Below, piece by piece: positions 4,610 to 25,139 of a stretch of DNA of 25,139 nucleotides; within the stretch, counting starts at the first letter, position 1, and every line of letters begins with the position of its first letter. Source of the DNA: a virus. The stretch spans positions 1 to 25,139 of IMG/VR virus record IMGVR_UViG_3300022925_000166. One strand, 5' to 3'. A program made the position numbers and the translations under genes. The notes beneath the pieces are model-generated. The model worked only from the letters and a program-made list of their open reading frames with translations. It had not been told where the DNA came from and did not search any database.

Positions 4610-7087
4610 TTATCGGAAACCGCCTCCTGTTTGAATGATACTGGTTGGTGGTATGAAAAATGTTTGATCGTTTTCGCGCTCAACGCGGCGCTCCATGCGA
4701 CGAAGATAGCCAGGATTGATAGTTTCTTGTAGCTGATACCAAATCAAATAATCTAGAACTGGCTTGGTGTAAAACACGTTCCCAAATGGAAGATTGCTTT
4801 TAAAGAACCTAACCCAATCTAACCTTGCATCTACATCACCACCCAAAACAACATCTCTAGTCTTTGCTAGGTTATCTGCAAAATCAAATATTGTTGTAGC
4901 GCCTGGCCCAGCAACGGTAGCCAACATGCCTCCACCGTATCTATTAGCTTCACCGAATAAGAAGTCACCGTATATACCAGCACCACCGCCTTGAAGCATC
5001 GCCGCTAATAATGTTTCTTTTGAGGGCGGCCTAAGATCCCTTCCTTTGACAAGCTCCTTAAGCTGCATAACAAAATAACCAAGAACAGTCGTGCCAACGA
5101 TTGTATTTATTAAACCCATATTCGCGCCAATGCCGCGCTGTAGTTGTTCGCGCTTAGTCTTGGCTCCATAACCATACATATGACGTCCGTAAACCTTACT
5201 AACAGCAGTAACTCCAAACGACTTAAACTGCCCCATGGTCCTGATTGCTTCGCCAGCTGCGGTGCCAGGTCTGTATCCACGCCGCACCATTGCCCTCTCT
5301 CTTGCGCCTGGAGAAATGACTGAGTTATCTACCTCAGAAACCAAAAGAGTAAACAGGCTTTCCTTTATTCGTGGATCTTCAATGTTATCTGGCATTAGAT
5401 ACATTCTGCCATCTGGCCCTTTTTCAGTAGCCTTTCTGGCAATATCCCATTGCTCTTTTCCTATGCCATATATTCCAAGAATCCTTTTTAAATCCTCTTG
5501 AACCTTATCAAACTTGTTTGCCGCCTCTACGCCAAGATCGTTTGAAATCATTAGGGCAACGCCACGTTTATTGCTATCTGTCCATGGGCCTAAGAGGTTT
5601 AGTTTGAAAAACTGCCTCATCAACTTGTTGGTGGCCCCAGGAAAGTCATCAGCAGCATTGAAACGGCCATAAAAATTGCCTAATTGACCTTCTAGACCAG
5701 CCCCTAATCTGTCAGCATATTCTCTTAGTTTGCCTTTTGGGGCACCTTTGACTACAGCGGAAAAGCCATCTGCCCACGCATCTAGCAAAGATCTGCCTTG
5801 ATATATTCTTGCTGAGGAAATGAAGGCAGTATCAGCTAAAGATGCTAAGAATACACCACCCAGCTTTGACATCGTTTGAACGTCTCTTAATCCCTTCATA
5901 ATACTAGCAGAGGTAATATTGAAGGGATCGTTAATTTCCCCAGTAACCTCTTTTAGAGCACTTTCAAAGTTTACAGCATAAGGAATGCGGCTATCTCTTC
6001 TTTGTATATCTTTAAGTTTTTGCGGGTCTGGATCGTCTCTGTATTTAACCTCTAATCTATCAATAATCTTATCCATCATCGCTTCTGGATTTGTGCCAAA
6101 TACCTCCAAAAGAGCTGTAGCCCTAGCGGCTGATTGAAGATCTTCCGTAAATGCTTCTCTGAGAGAGGCCCGACCAAACTCTTGGTCATAATTGTACCAA
6201 GCCTCAGCATCATTAAAGATAAATAAACTGCCCTCACTTTCTTGTCTGGCTAGGTTTTTTGTACCCTTGAAGGATCTACTTACTTCTGTTCGATGGGTTG
6301 TTTTTCTTACGCCCGTTGTGAGGGTGGCGTATGCACTATCTAAAAAGCCCTCAATTCGCTCTGGAGCAATTTCCATATTTTCATAATCAAGCTTATCACG
6401 AATAGTATTCTTCCAGCTGTCTTTGGTTGCTTTGAGCATCTTTGCCCTATCGTGAACCGTTCCGACAACGCGACCTTGCTTTAGTCTTATGTATGCGCCA
6501 GCTTGATTTTCTCTTTGGAGGGCAGCGCGCTGATACTTAAACATTATCTCAGCTATAGCTTTTGCATCGGCAGAAGCGCCTGGCACACCTTTTGGCTTCT
6601 TGAGGTTTAAATCACCTAGAACCAGAACCACCGACTTTTCAAACTCACCCTTCATATTATCATACTTTGTAAGCAAGCCCTTAGCTTTTAGATCGCTAAT
6701 AAGCCCCCCAAAGTAAGAGCTTTCTAACGCTTGACCAATAGCGGCAACAGATCGACCCGATTCAAAAAACGGCGAGTTTACACCAACAAGCGCGGCCTCT
6801 AAGCCAAGAGATGGATTACCAACCGCCTCATCGGCACGCTCAGCAAGAGCCATTATTCTTTGCTCTTTTAAAATATTCATGTAGCGATTTCGCTTTTCAA
6901 TTTTGCGAGCTAAATCGGTATCCCTCTTCATTGTTTCGCCGCGAATAAAGATAGCTGATTCCGCATCGGATAAAGGGAATAATTTGGACTTCTTAACGGC
7001 CTCTAAGTCTTGCAGGATTTCATCAATCTGCTCATCACTTAGCCTGTTTCTACTTGCTCTTTTTGCAACATCCCTACAATCGACCAT
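4610..7087 (-). CDS. Large internal virion / DNA-ejection protein (T7 gp16 C-terminal-like position)
   Basis: 825 residues from the ATG at 7087. The reading frame also opens at a TTG six codons earlier, but the ATG forms TAATG with the upstream stop and has GAGG 6 bases before it, so coupled reinitiation is likely. The first half is a charged helical region (DEQIDEILQDLEAVKKSK; ARKIEKRNRYMN). The second half holds hydrophobic stretches, for example at about residues 654-673 (GLINTIVGTTVLGYFVMQL), and a Gly-rich AAMLQGGGAGIYGDFLFG. The protein ends with FFIPPTSII, an aromatic-proline tail like that of large podovirus ejection proteins. I saw no lytic transglycosylase motif. Together with the 623-residue gene it approximates the size of T7 gp16. 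The proposed role is forming the channel that carries DNA through the cell envelope. Confidence 0.65.
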   Translation of the reverse strand: MVDCRDVAKRASRNRLSDEQIDEILQDLEAVKKSKLFPLSDAESAIFIRGETMKRDTDLARKIEKRNRYMNILKEQRIMALAERADEAVGNPSLGLEAALVGVNSPFFESGRSVAAIGQALESSYFGGLISDLKAKGLLTKYDNMKGEFEKSVVLVLGDLNLKKPKGVPGASADAKAIAEIMFKYQRAALQRENQAGAYIRLKQGRVVGTVHDRAKMLKATKDSWKNTIRDKLDYENMEIAPERIEGFLDSAYATLTTGVRKTTHRTEVSRSFKGTKNLARQESEGSLFIFNDAEAWYNYDQEFGRASLREAFTEDLQSAARATALLEVFGTNPEAMMDKIIDRLEVKYRDDPDPQKLKDIQRRDSRIPYAVNFESALKEVTGEINDPFNITSASIMKGLRDVQTMSKLGGVFLASLADTAFISSARIYQGRSLLDAWADGFSAVVKGAPKGKLREYADRLGAGLEGQLGNFYGRFNAADDFPGATNKLMRQFFKLNLLGPWTDSNKRGVALMISNDLGVEAANKFDKVQEDLKRILGIYGIGKEQWDIARKATEKGPDGRMYLMPDNIEDPRIKESLFTLLVSEVDNSVISPGARERAMVRRGYRPGTAAGEAIRTMGQFKSFGVTAVSKVYGRHMYGYGAKTKREQLQRGIGANMGLINTIVGTTVLGYFVMQLKELVKGRDLRPPSKETLLAAMLQGGGAGIYGDFLFGEANRYGGGMLATVAGPGATTIFDFADNLAKTRDVVLGGDVDARLDWVRFFKSNLPFGNVFYTKPVLDYLIWYQLQETINPGYLRRMERRVERENDQTFFIPPTSIIQTGGGFR

Positions 7088-22809: not shown

Positions 22810-22991
22810 CGCTTAGACCTTTCCCTAGAAATCCTATCCATATCAGCCCTAGTCAACTTACCCATACGATATAACGCTCGAGTTCTCAATATTTCCTTGC
22901 GCGTACCTTCAACATCACCAGATCCAGTAACGTACTTCTTAGGAATGCCTGACTTACGATCCTTGGCAACAGACTTAAACTTGCGCTTCAT
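22806..22991 (-). CDS. 61-residue basic phage protein
   Basis: 61 residues: MKRKFKSVAKDRKSGIPKKY, VTGSGDVEGTRKEILRTRAL, YRMGKLTRADMDRISRERSK, R. The D-x-K-S-G-I/V-P-K-K-Y phrase is a recurring opening in small phage proteins of this gene neighbourhood, followed here by a helical Arg/Glu-rich part. It has ATGA overlaps at both ends with its neighbours, so it belongs to a tightly coupled set. The function is unknown; the basic charge may indicate nucleic acid binding. Confidence 0.68.
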   Translation of the reverse strand: MKRKFKSVAKDRKSGIPKKYVTGSGDVEGTRKEILRTRALYRMGKLTRADMDRISRERSKR

Positions 22992-23359
22992 TTCTTATCC
23001 TTTACGTTCAACAACCTCTTAGGGCGCGGCTTTGGACGCATACCAGTTATAGCCAACGGATTCTTAGATGCACCACCACCCTTGCTACGAGCCTTGGCAG
23101 CAGACACAGCCTCCTTAATCGTATCGTACCGAGGAAACTTGCGACCAGTAGACTTCTCATAATCCTCAGCAGCATTCCAAGCCCTATCACCGCTTAGAAA
23201 ACGAGCCTTCCCAGTCTTTTCCTCAAACCATATCTGAGGAATGTTCCAAGCCCTGCCCTCCGGTGAACGCTCACTGGCAAGATACTCAGTTGCCTTGGAG
23301 CCTCCAACAGTCTCAACAGGCTTATGCTTCTTCGGATCAAACGGAACTAGAGATGGCAT
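22988..23359 (-). CDS. Conserved hypothetical phage protein
   Basis: 123 residues. The centre has RAWNIPQIWFEEKTGKARFL, then AWNAAEDYEKSTGRKFPRYD and EAVSAAKARSKGGGA. The I-P-(T/Q)-(I)-W ... A-x-x-Y-E-x-x-T-G-x-x-F-P-R-(Y/F)-(D) ... A-x-x-R-(S) pattern is a widespread family in podoviruses with packaging or structural genes, often annotated as hypothetical. The C-terminus is basic (RPKPRPKRLLNVKDKK). It is the first gene after the 256-base gap and thus the likely head of the small-gene and terminase transcript. It may be virion-associated; no biochemical role is claimed. Confidence 0.75.
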   Translation of the reverse strand: MPSLVPFDPKKHKPVETVGGSKATEYLASERSPEGRAWNIPQIWFEEKTGKARFLSGDRAWNAAEDYEKSTGRKFPRYDTIKEAVSAAKARSKGGGASKNPLAITGMRPKPRPKRLLNVKDKK

Positions 23360-23615: not shown

Positions 23616-24221
23616 TCAAGCTGCCTCTTCGTCGCTGTGTGGCTCGCTCAGGAGCTCTACGGCTTGGTTTGCCAGCATTGCTGCGCCGCGTCTGAGCTTC
23701 TCCGGTTTGATTACCCAGCCATCAGATATTGCCCGTGTGAAAAACTCTGTCGTCAAACACTGAAATTCATCCACTAGCTTAGATAGGTCCAGTTCGACTG
23801 CCGTGTTAATACCAGTTAGGCGCATGTTACCTTCCTGTTTTAACATTGCTTCAGCTTCACCTAATTGGATTTGCTGTTTAGGCGTTAGCCTGGAGCGTAT
23901 GGTTTCCTCTAGTTTGACCTGTTGATCGTAGACGATGCGGTTGCTGGTGCTCTTCTGGTCTTTGTAGAACGGCTTACAGAACGTCATGTATCCAAACTTG
24001 CGCAGCCTTACTACGTGCCAGCTTACACCTGACTGTGACAGCCCTATGTCTTGCCCGATCCTTGTTTGGCTTACGAATGTTCTGCCCATATGGTCTGCGT
24101 AAGAACAAAACGCCGCGAGCACTCTGAATGCTGACGGCGTGATGCGTGGATCTTTTAGCGCCCTGATTGGCACGACTGCAAACGCTCGGAGATCTTTGGC
24201 TTTGAGCTGCTTTGGCCTCAT
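23616..24221 (-). CDS. Winged-helix DNA-binding protein (HTH_36-like)
   Basis: 201 residues. Residues about 20-95 form a winged helix-turn-helix: PIRALKDPRITPSAFRVLAA, FCSYADHMGRTFVSQTRIGQ, DIGLSQSGVSWHVVRLRKFG and YMTF. SQTRIGQDIGLSQSGVSWHV contains the recognition helix. This is the layout of HTH_36/RepA-like domains in phage replication or regulatory proteins. The C-terminal half is helical without known motifs and ends in an acidic SEPHSDEEAA. It starts at an ATG sharing one base with the previous stop (TGATG), so it is made together with the initiator block. It may be a replication accessory factor or a regulator of the downstream gap. Confidence 0.72.
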   Translation of the reverse strand: MRPKQLKAKDLRAFAVVPIRALKDPRITPSAFRVLAAFCSYADHMGRTFVSQTRIGQDIGLSQSGVSWHVVRLRKFGYMTFCKPFYKDQKSTSNRIVYDQQVKLEETIRSRLTPKQQIQLGEAEAMLKQEGNMRLTGINTAVELDLSKLVDEFQCLTTEFFTRAISDGWVIKPEKLRRGAAMLANQAVELLSEPHSDEEAA

Positions 24222-24769
24222 CAGTAGGGGTTCTCCATCAGTTCCTCGATCGGATCGTGCTCGGTGTATTGCACTGGCTCTGGTGCTGCATACATCTTCA
24301 TTTCTTCTTTGAGATAGTTTTTGTATGGCTCTAGCTGCTCTGGCTTTATCAGCTTCTTATCGATCAGCCTGGTTGCACCTGATCCGTTGATGTAGCTTTC
24401 GGCCACTGGTTCACCGGCGTTTATGCGTTTTGCTGCGATCTTGTCGCTGTCGAAGATGTGCGGCTGTCTTGGTCCTGTGATTGCTGTGGCTTGTGTTTCG
24501 CTGCATTTCTGCGCGGCTTTGGTGAGCGTGTAGATTGTTGGCCATGATCTGCTGCGTGTGTTTTTTCTGATGTCTTGCGACATTTTGCTGAGAATATGAT
24601 CTAGGCTAGATTGCTCGACGCTGCTTGGTATTTCGCTGTTGATGTCCTCGACCATTGCGTCCATCTCTTGGCGCGCTCGATCGGGCGTGTGGTTTGCCGG
24701 TACATCGTAGCGCTTGAGTTCTTCTTGGAGCCATGCGCCGATGGTGCGTGTTCTATCCTGGTACTTCAT
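24221..24769 (-). CDS. Replication-block protein of unknown function
   Basis: 182 residues, helical. It begins MKYQDRTRTIGAWLQEELKR; a central SSLDHILSKMSQDIRKNTRS with RSWPTIYTLTKAAQ is the most conserved-looking part. A short DKIAAKRINAGEPVAESYIN section and an acidic tail (YTEHDPIEELMENPY) follow. It is coupled to the initiator by an ATGA overlap and to the winged-helix gene by TGATG. In lambda the gene after O is P, a helicase loader, and the same slot is occupied here, but I see no recognisable P, DnaC or DnaT motif. It could be a loader or a partner; the function is open. Confidence 0.6.
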   Translation of the reverse strand: MKYQDRTRTIGAWLQEELKRYDVPANHTPDRARQEMDAMVEDINSEIPSSVEQSSLDHILSKMSQDIRKNTRSRSWPTIYTLTKAAQKCSETQATAITGPRQPHIFDSDKIAAKRINAGEPVAESYINGSGATRLIDKKLIKPEQLEPYKNYLKEEMKMYAAPEPVQYTEHDPIEELMENPY

Positions 24770-25139
24770 TGGATCAGCTTCCTGTCGGTTTGGTAGCTTC
24801 CGAGGATTGCTTGCATTTGCTGCTCGCTGGTCATGTCCTGCAGTGATTGCTCTTGCAGCTCGTCATCCCAGCGCTCGCCGTTTAGCCATGTTGAGAGATG
24901 CGGCAGATATTTCTTGTCCTTGCCGGTTGATGCTTTGACGTAATCGATCAGCGCTGCATGGATCTTGTCATAGTCAACCTTGCGCAGTGCTGCATTGAAT
25001 GCTTTGCGAGCTTGGCCCTTGCCTACCTTCTTTGGATAGATAGACCACAAATCATCAAAAATGACCGATATATTAAGGTTATTACTTACATGGTTATTAC
25101 TTACTAGGTTACTCTGCAGATTTTGCAGATCGGAAACTG
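24766..25139 (-). CDS. Lambda-O-like replication initiator, C-terminal part (5' end beyond window)
   Basis: The frame stays open to the right edge, so the apparent TTG start at 25050 is not the real start. The edge-proximal part reads SNLVSNNHVSNNLNISVIFD then DLWSIYPKKVGKGQARKAFN. The F-D-x-(L/F)-W-S-x-Y-P-(R/K)-K-V-G-K-G phrase with YLPHLSTWLNGERWDDE is the well-known C-terminal module of phage replication proteins that carry an N-terminal winged helix. It probably binds the origin and recruits the host helicase. The Asn/Ser-rich linker before it is encoded by 15-base DNA repeats. The N-terminal DNA-binding domain is not visible. Confidence 0.75.
   Translation of the reverse strand, partial: VSDLQNLQSNLVSNNHVSNNLNISVIFDDLWSIYPKKVGKGQARKAFNAALRKVDYDKIHAALIDYVKASTGKDKKYLPHLSTWLNGERWDDELQEQSLQDMTSEQQMQAILGSYQTDRKLIQ
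25077..25112. repeat. 15-base iteron-like direct repeats
   Basis: GGTTATTACTTAC occurs at 25077-25089 and again at 25092-25104, with a partial third copy GGTTAC at 25107-25112, a 15-base period. The repeats are AT-rich and in frame inside the initiator gene, encoding (V)SNN units. Further copies may lie beyond the window edge. Confidence 0.7.
25109..25130 (-). repeat. Copy 2 of a gapped shared motif
   Basis: The plus strand reads TTACTCT, GCAGATTTT, GCAGAT, the same 22 bases as at 4570-4595 except for a 3-base and a 1-base gap. It lies next to the iteron-like repeats in the initiator coding sequence and contains GCAGAT-TTT-GCAGAT. Confidence 0.5.

Follow-up and report, generated by a model that had tools for sequence, protein, structure and literature searches.

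A probable replication origin inside the initiator gene at the edge of a phage contig

The right end of the virus record IMGVR_UViG_3300022925_000166 raises the question of whether the DNA encoding a replication initiator may also be the origin on which this initiator acts. The window analysed here is the whole record (25,139 bp), which is itself probably a fragment of a phage genome and carries tailed-phage genes (terminase, head-tail adaptor and virion proteins) on the minus strand. According to the sequence comparisons described below, the window edge is very probably the edge of a replication origin that is embedded in the initiator gene and works as proposed here. The features concerned are:

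24221..24769, minus strand: gene of a 182-aa all-helical protein, possibly a helicase loader taking the position that P has in lambda; it directly follows the initiator gene
24766..25137, minus strand: 3' part of the replication-initiator gene, a 123-aa open frame that runs off the contig edge
25077..25111, minus strand: AACC element, the presumed DNA-unwinding region, composed of TAACC and then two AACC-ended repeats with a period of 15
25114..25128, minus strand: last iteron of three, CTGCAAAATCTGCAG, a 15-bp imperfect dyad CTGCA-AAATC-TGCAG with arms of 5 and a spacer of 5
25137..25139, minus strand: end (3 bases) of the middle iteron, the rest of which lies beyond the contig edge; recognized by comparison with loci L002-L004

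The initiator and its neighbours

The product of the truncated frame covers the end of the linker and the C-terminal domain, and in a profile search it matched phrog_270 (replication initiation protein) with E 5.3e-23. For the full-length initiator of locus L003 the same profile gave E 9.6e-50 over residues 1-245, that is, over both the N- and the C-domain. The L002 initiator is 98% identical to the window protein over 123 aa, and those of L003 and L004 are 100% identical to it over residues 1-114. The L003 protein also matched phrog_391 (E 5e-22), a family related to phrog_277; phrog_277 itself was not among the best 25 of the 26 families found for this protein and hence could reach at best E 0.06. 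HTH_36 was matched by all 32 aligned relatives, and Pfam RP-C, weakly, by three of them (best E 3.6e-4). Compared with L002 (L002:1764-2450), the L003 initiator (L003:5686-6504) has 44 additional residues near the C-terminus, between ILGS and DRKLIQ.

In the AlphaFold2 model of the initiator (mean pLDDT 80.6) a winged helix extends to approximately residue 86, a low-confidence or disordered stretch occupies residues 94-125, and helices follow from residue 128 on. Among solved structures Foldseek returned DnaD as the best matches, the only one under E 0.001 being a DnaD integrative model, while VIA-align ranked general winged helices first, and many repressors were present among the fold matches. 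Comparison with solved structures by sequence gave 25 weak matches for the initiator, many of them winged-helix regulators, and no match at E ≤1 for the profile of its C-domain.

Homologues of the 182-aa protein follow the initiator in many loci (70 rows of the comparison). This protein had no Pfam match, and its sole PHROG match was weak (phrog_5545, E 0.044); in alignment A4, composed of the window's protein and 23 others chosen among the matches listed (60 of 70), the 24 relatives gave scattered family matches with E from 0.0067 up. Its model (mean pLDDT 81.2) ranked the lambda P chain 9oa1_Z first, at a non-significant level (E 0.57, probability 0.60). The superposition with lambda P (Z 9.5, rmsd 3.0, 87 residues aligned) exceeded that with the next, unrelated chains (Z 8.4) by an amount that is within the noise of helical models, and the search of viral predicted structures gave one match, A0A516LL16 (E 8.5e-5). 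These models are no more than suggestive of a lambda-P-like loader, and the parallel with the lambda O-P gene order, drawn in the sequence-only reading of this DNA, appears plausible in that lambda P is the top-ranked fold match, although this match is non-significant and no family match is usable.

Two further genes of this region deserve mention. Two genes downstream of the initiator (23616-24221, minus strand) lies the gene of a second HTH_36 protein of 201 aa, matching PF13730 with E 1.6e-7 and the O-like phrog_391 with E 9.6e-6; possibly it is a second initiator-like or a regulatory protein. A 123-aa protein encoded at 22988-23359 (minus strand), adjoining the replication genes, matched part of phrog_938, which bears an endolysin label (E 4.4e-11).

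Dyads and the weakest duplex in the linker code

The window contains one whole dyad and the last 3 bases of another, so that the array is indeed cut by the window edge, as the sequence-only reading had assumed. Beyond the edge that reading would look for more copies of the repeat, and it named their absence upstream as an outcome speaking against an origin. This outcome did not occur: further copies are found there in L002-L004, but they are copies of the dyad and not of the 15-mer. CTGCAAAATCTGCAG is present in three exact copies in each of these loci, and in L003 the copies start at 5965, 5987 and 6010, i.e. with spacings of 22 and 23 bp. The middle dyad of L002-L004 sits in a different reading frame, and the protein therefore reads LQNLQ, AKSA and LQNLQ at the three sites. 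The dyad is imperfect, and its reverse strand fits the pattern at a cost of 3 mismatches. When up to that many were tolerated, the pattern had seven matches in L003, where 0.73 were expected; six of the seven are the three sites counted on each strand, and none of 200 shuffles reached this number. For the window alone the count was not above chance (4 matches, 1.73 expected, 4 reached in 11 of 100 shuffles), because only one copy falls inside it; likewise, the array was not in the five best repeats of the window repeat scan, because the edge leaves one iteron.

The hexamer GCAGAT, proposed earlier as a motif shared at this locus, occurs at 25116, within the dyad 25114-25128, and at 25125, on its edge. 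It does belong to the dyad iteron, but as a locus-specific motif it was rejected, having 45 matches over the whole record versus 20.7 expected, about twice the expected count.

The in-frame 15-base repeats are real: the 13-mer GTAAGTAATAACC occurs twice without mismatch on the minus strand, once at 25077-25089 and once at 25092-25104, with a period of 15. Taken alone, this repeat is weak evidence, as at least two matches to its pattern (up to 2 mismatches) were found in 5 of 100 shuffles of the record. The repeats belong to TAACCTAGTAAGTAATAACCATGTAAGTAATAACC (25077-25111), and when approximately 25,090 segments of 50 nt from the whole record were compared by nearest-neighbour energies, the duplex at positions 25067-25116 proved the least stable. 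The weakest duplex of the initiator gene coincides with the AACC element in L003, L002, L191 and L203 as well, and in L191 and L203 it is the weakest of the whole locus. As parts of an AACC element that is enclosed by the least stable 50 bp of the record, the 15-bp repeats probably belong to an unwinding region and are not initiator-binding sites; the latter are probably the dyads beside them.

By coordinates the iterons code for residues 94-113 of the initiator and the AACC element for residues ~114-126, so in the predicted structure the origin would lie where there is little protein fold to be disturbed. Of 636 positions compared between L002 and L003, 30 differ, and a run of 141 nt free of differences spans both the iterons and the 15-bp repeats (P 0.013 for such a run).

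Cumulative GC skew was set aside as evidence for an origin, since it is dominated by gene orientation. Its minimum is at 23,333 in the window, ~1.8 kb from the array, and at 4,864 in L003, at a coding-strand switch located upstream of the iterons by ~1.1 kb; the skew also tracks the coding strand in five longer phage contigs. The check proposed in the sequence-only reading says little, therefore, because skew follows the orientation of genes.

We infer that the region would be active as an origin in the following way. The N-terminal winged-helix domain would bind, probably as dimers, the three 15-bp dyad iterons, which lie in the code for the disordered linker of the initiator and whose spacing of 22 and 23 bp corresponds to about two turns of the helix. 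The resulting initiator-DNA assembly would strain the AACC element next to it, where the record has its weakest duplex, until that element opens, and the C-terminal domain and/or the 182-aa protein may then recruit the replicative helicase. One can assume instead that the HTH protein uses the dyads as operators, to autoregulate its operon or to block transcription through it, while replication starts elsewhere. An autorepressor would also use dyads beside a winged-helix protein, and many repressors were among the fold matches. The sites lie mid-gene, however, in threes spaced by helical turns and next to the weakest duplex of the record, and the families matched by the protein are those of replication initiators, which makes such an explanation improbable.

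Arrays across the family and their link to the N-domain

Linkers of the initiator family were surveyed in 129 genes, which remained after redundancy removal from 164 having at least 130 aa upstream of the C-domain, out of 198 ORFs with this domain. A three-copy repeat score was calculated over the 180 nt preceding the C-domain and compared with 60 synonymous shuffles per gene, the N-domain and C-domain segments of the same 129 genes serving as controls. The linker score exceeded all 60 shuffles in 50 of 129 genes, as compared with three N-domain and three C-domain controls, and scores of at least 22 were registered for 77 linkers, 5 N-domain segments and 1 C-domain segment. Most over-represented relative to the shuffles were the lags of 22 (46 genes versus 7.0; controls, 9 for the N-domain and 2 for the C-domain) and 23 (38 genes versus 6.8; controls, 5 and 2). 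Of the 129 initiator ORFs, 33 had triples with 22/23 spacing, compared with a single one of the 527 other ORFs in these loci. Maximal dyads with 8-9 of 9 pairs were present in 39 linkers, versus 8 and 5 in the controls. The same score recovered the lambda iterons at its floor p of 0.005, though two N-terminal windows of lambda O also reached p 0.03 and 0.02.

Absence of the repeats from relatives had been named beforehand as an outcome that would speak against an origin; the dyad arrays do recur in relatives. Strong arrays were found in loci from Corynebacterium, Nocardia, Rhodococcus, Variovorax, Rhodoferax and Erysipelatoclostridium and in many environmental viral contigs. Judging from the scores, the layout is missing from some members of the family or at times escapes detection, 52 of 129 linkers scoring below 22 and 79 not exceeding all of their shuffles. 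In L201 a weaker array is outside the top repeats of its locus, and in L214 other repeats score as high as the array. Near this initiator-type locus there is also a large tandem array (L214:8448-9271) with periods of 33, 66 and 246 bp.

It is very unlikely that the repeats merely mirror a repetitive disordered linker in the protein, the DNA itself having no function. In the model the linker is indeed disordered, and the distance is a multiple of 3 for 81 of 131 close repeats, a proportion above one third, and therefore repetition at the protein level contributes; some repeats are also retained by synonymous shuffles, as the 7.0 genes with lag 22 demonstrate. Yet neither 22 nor 23 is divisible by 3, and in L002-L004 the reading frame of the middle iteron differs from that of its neighbours; the excess of strong dyads over the controls and the 50 linkers beating all of their synonymous shuffles also speak against this explanation.

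An element of the general AACC form follows the arrays in many relatives with a different N-domain and different iterons. Pairs of AACC 11-17 bp apart were present in 41 of 129 linkers, versus 6 N-domain controls, 2 C-domain controls and 16.5 in synonymous shuffles. Enrichment over the shuffles was also registered for TAACC (39 linkers versus 20.0) and TAACCT (26 versus 6.0) and, mildly, for GTAAG (26 versus 17.7), and was absent for AACC as a lone word (97 of 129 linkers versus 89.4).

Co-variation between the iterons and the protein was estimated for 30 of the 32 initiators in alignment A3 (32 of 37 listed), giving 435 pairs; L200 and L048 were left out as their array scores were below the threshold of the test. 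The AACC part was cut off beforehand, and the test thus covers the dyads. With the C-domain controlled for, similarity of iterons correlated with identity of the N-domain (partial r 0.466, permutation p 0.0005); in the reverse test, with the N-domain controlled for, it showed no correlation with C-domain identity (partial r 0.012, p 0.40). Besides recognition, joint inheritance of adjoining DNA could account for part of this co-variation.

Natural exchanges in these sequences point the same way, agreeing with iterons that follow the N-domain. L005, L007 and L008 have the C-domain type of the window (91-93% identity) and other iterons; L007, the only one of the three that shows part of the N-domain, differs there from the window type. 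Conversely, the 13 loci L203-L215 have the N-domain type of the window, and 11 of them carry dyads and an AACC-type element, the array being absent from L210 and L211. In three of the 13 (L203, L208 and L214) a search of the whole record found no match to the C-domain. By eye, similar recognition helices give the impression of pairing with similar dyads. The phages BK5-T and phi31.1 (L232:603-684 and L233:576-786), which have related initiators, possess clearly different arrays and a near-identical stretch downstream, and this difference is likely another module swap.

A separate observation concerns the contigs themselves. A contig end falls inside the initiator gene or no more than ~230 nt from the matched stretch in six of nine close relatives (L002-L010) and in the window, the breaks being the right edge of the window (25139) and the contig starts of L005, L006, L007, L008, L009 and L010; the contig of L198 ends within its own array. 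Such assembly break points may be the sites where N-domain/iteron modules are swapped between co-occurring strains.

That the 15-bp AACC repeats are the iterons of the initiator, as the sequence-only reading had it, is scarcely to be believed: two exact tandem copies do lie beside the dyad, and related AACC repeats recur after the arrays, but the element keeps its general form while the N-domain and dyads change (L003, L007, L203-L209), the opposite of what is expected of a specific site, and it coincides with the weakest duplex, whereas it is the dyads that co-vary with the N-domain. What stood of that reading is the origin in a lambda-O-like initiator gene, now backed by dyad iterons, the weak duplex, the disordered linker and N-domain-linked recurrence; the wrong element had been named as iterons, and the 15-base repeats are placed in the presumed unwinding region.

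Known in-gene origins and the place of this one

Origins within initiator genes are already in print for lambda and Stx phages and for Tuc2009 and TP901-1, and as far as these published descriptions go the window offers a further case of that kind. Tandem iterons in the initiator's own coding sequence (three in L002-L004), imperfect inverted repeats and an adjacent weak duplex, which characterize in-gene phage origins, were all found. In lambda and Stx phages the established origin lies midway along gene O, its 19-bp iterons being imperfect inverted repeats next to an AT-rich region (PMC7466680). As in ori-lambda, the code for the N-domain, the iterons, the weak duplex and the code for the C-domain follow in the same order in the family of the window; annotated lambda iterons start 20, 24 and 23 bp apart, compared with 22 and 23 bp in relatives of the window, and the weakest lambda duplex starts at 724, 5 nt past the end of iteron 4 (719). 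The sequence of iterons is different, however, and in the description available their number is four in lambda and six in Stx phages, against three here; no AACC repeats were seen after the lambda iterons. The best family of lambda O is phrog_277, which is not one of the best 25 of the 26 families of the L003 initiator; the latter matches phrog_270 and, on these profiles, was not assigned to lambda O proper.

For the Lactococcus phages Tuc2009 (Rep2009) and TP901-1 (ORF13) the published description has the initiator binding repeat-rich regions in its own gene, which constitute ori (PMC8965321). By this description they resemble the window in having repeats within the initiator gene and differ in their iterons and hosts; their initiators were not among the matches listed in the initiator comparison (43 further records). 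The record of BK5-T has a repeat_region annotated inside the gene of the replication protein, with units 23, 22 and 23 bp apart, and its initiator is 65.7% identical to that of PLgT-1, which matches phrog_270. In repABC plasmids, according to the account consulted, oriV lies inside repC, at or near an AT-rich region, has no iterons and is inactivated by silent changes, which abolish replication (PMC3155836). RepC is thus similar to the window in having oriV in the initiator gene and, on that account, unlike its family, which has iterons. Assignment to the RepC type was rejected, given the presence of iterons and an RP-C match in just three of 32 relatives. In iteron plasmids such as RK2 the iterons recur at intervals of approximately two helical turns, next to an opening region that is AT-rich and carries its own short repeats; their origin is outside the initiator gene, unlike that of the window family.

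A search lying mostly outside subscription journals found no paper stating the family-wide 22-23 bp spacing or the co-variation with the N-domain. A broader reading, for which we see an even chance, is that very diverse phages and prophages share a portable origin-initiator cassette of one design, in which the winged helix and its cognate dyads, spaced by 22-23 bp in the linker code, are exchanged as a unit independently of the C-domain, while a large subset retains an opening element of the AACC type. If this were true, the initiator gene would be enough to read off the origins of many uncultured phages, and the recognition helix and the half-site of the iteron could be paired as a binding code. 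For a group of uncultured phages the locus supplies an origin that can be put to the test, and it makes a feature of lambda and lactococcal phages measurable across a family, with phasing of ~22.5 bp, dyads tracking the N-domain and an adjacent opening element. If upheld experimentally, it would make many phage and prophage origins predictable from the initiator gene alone.
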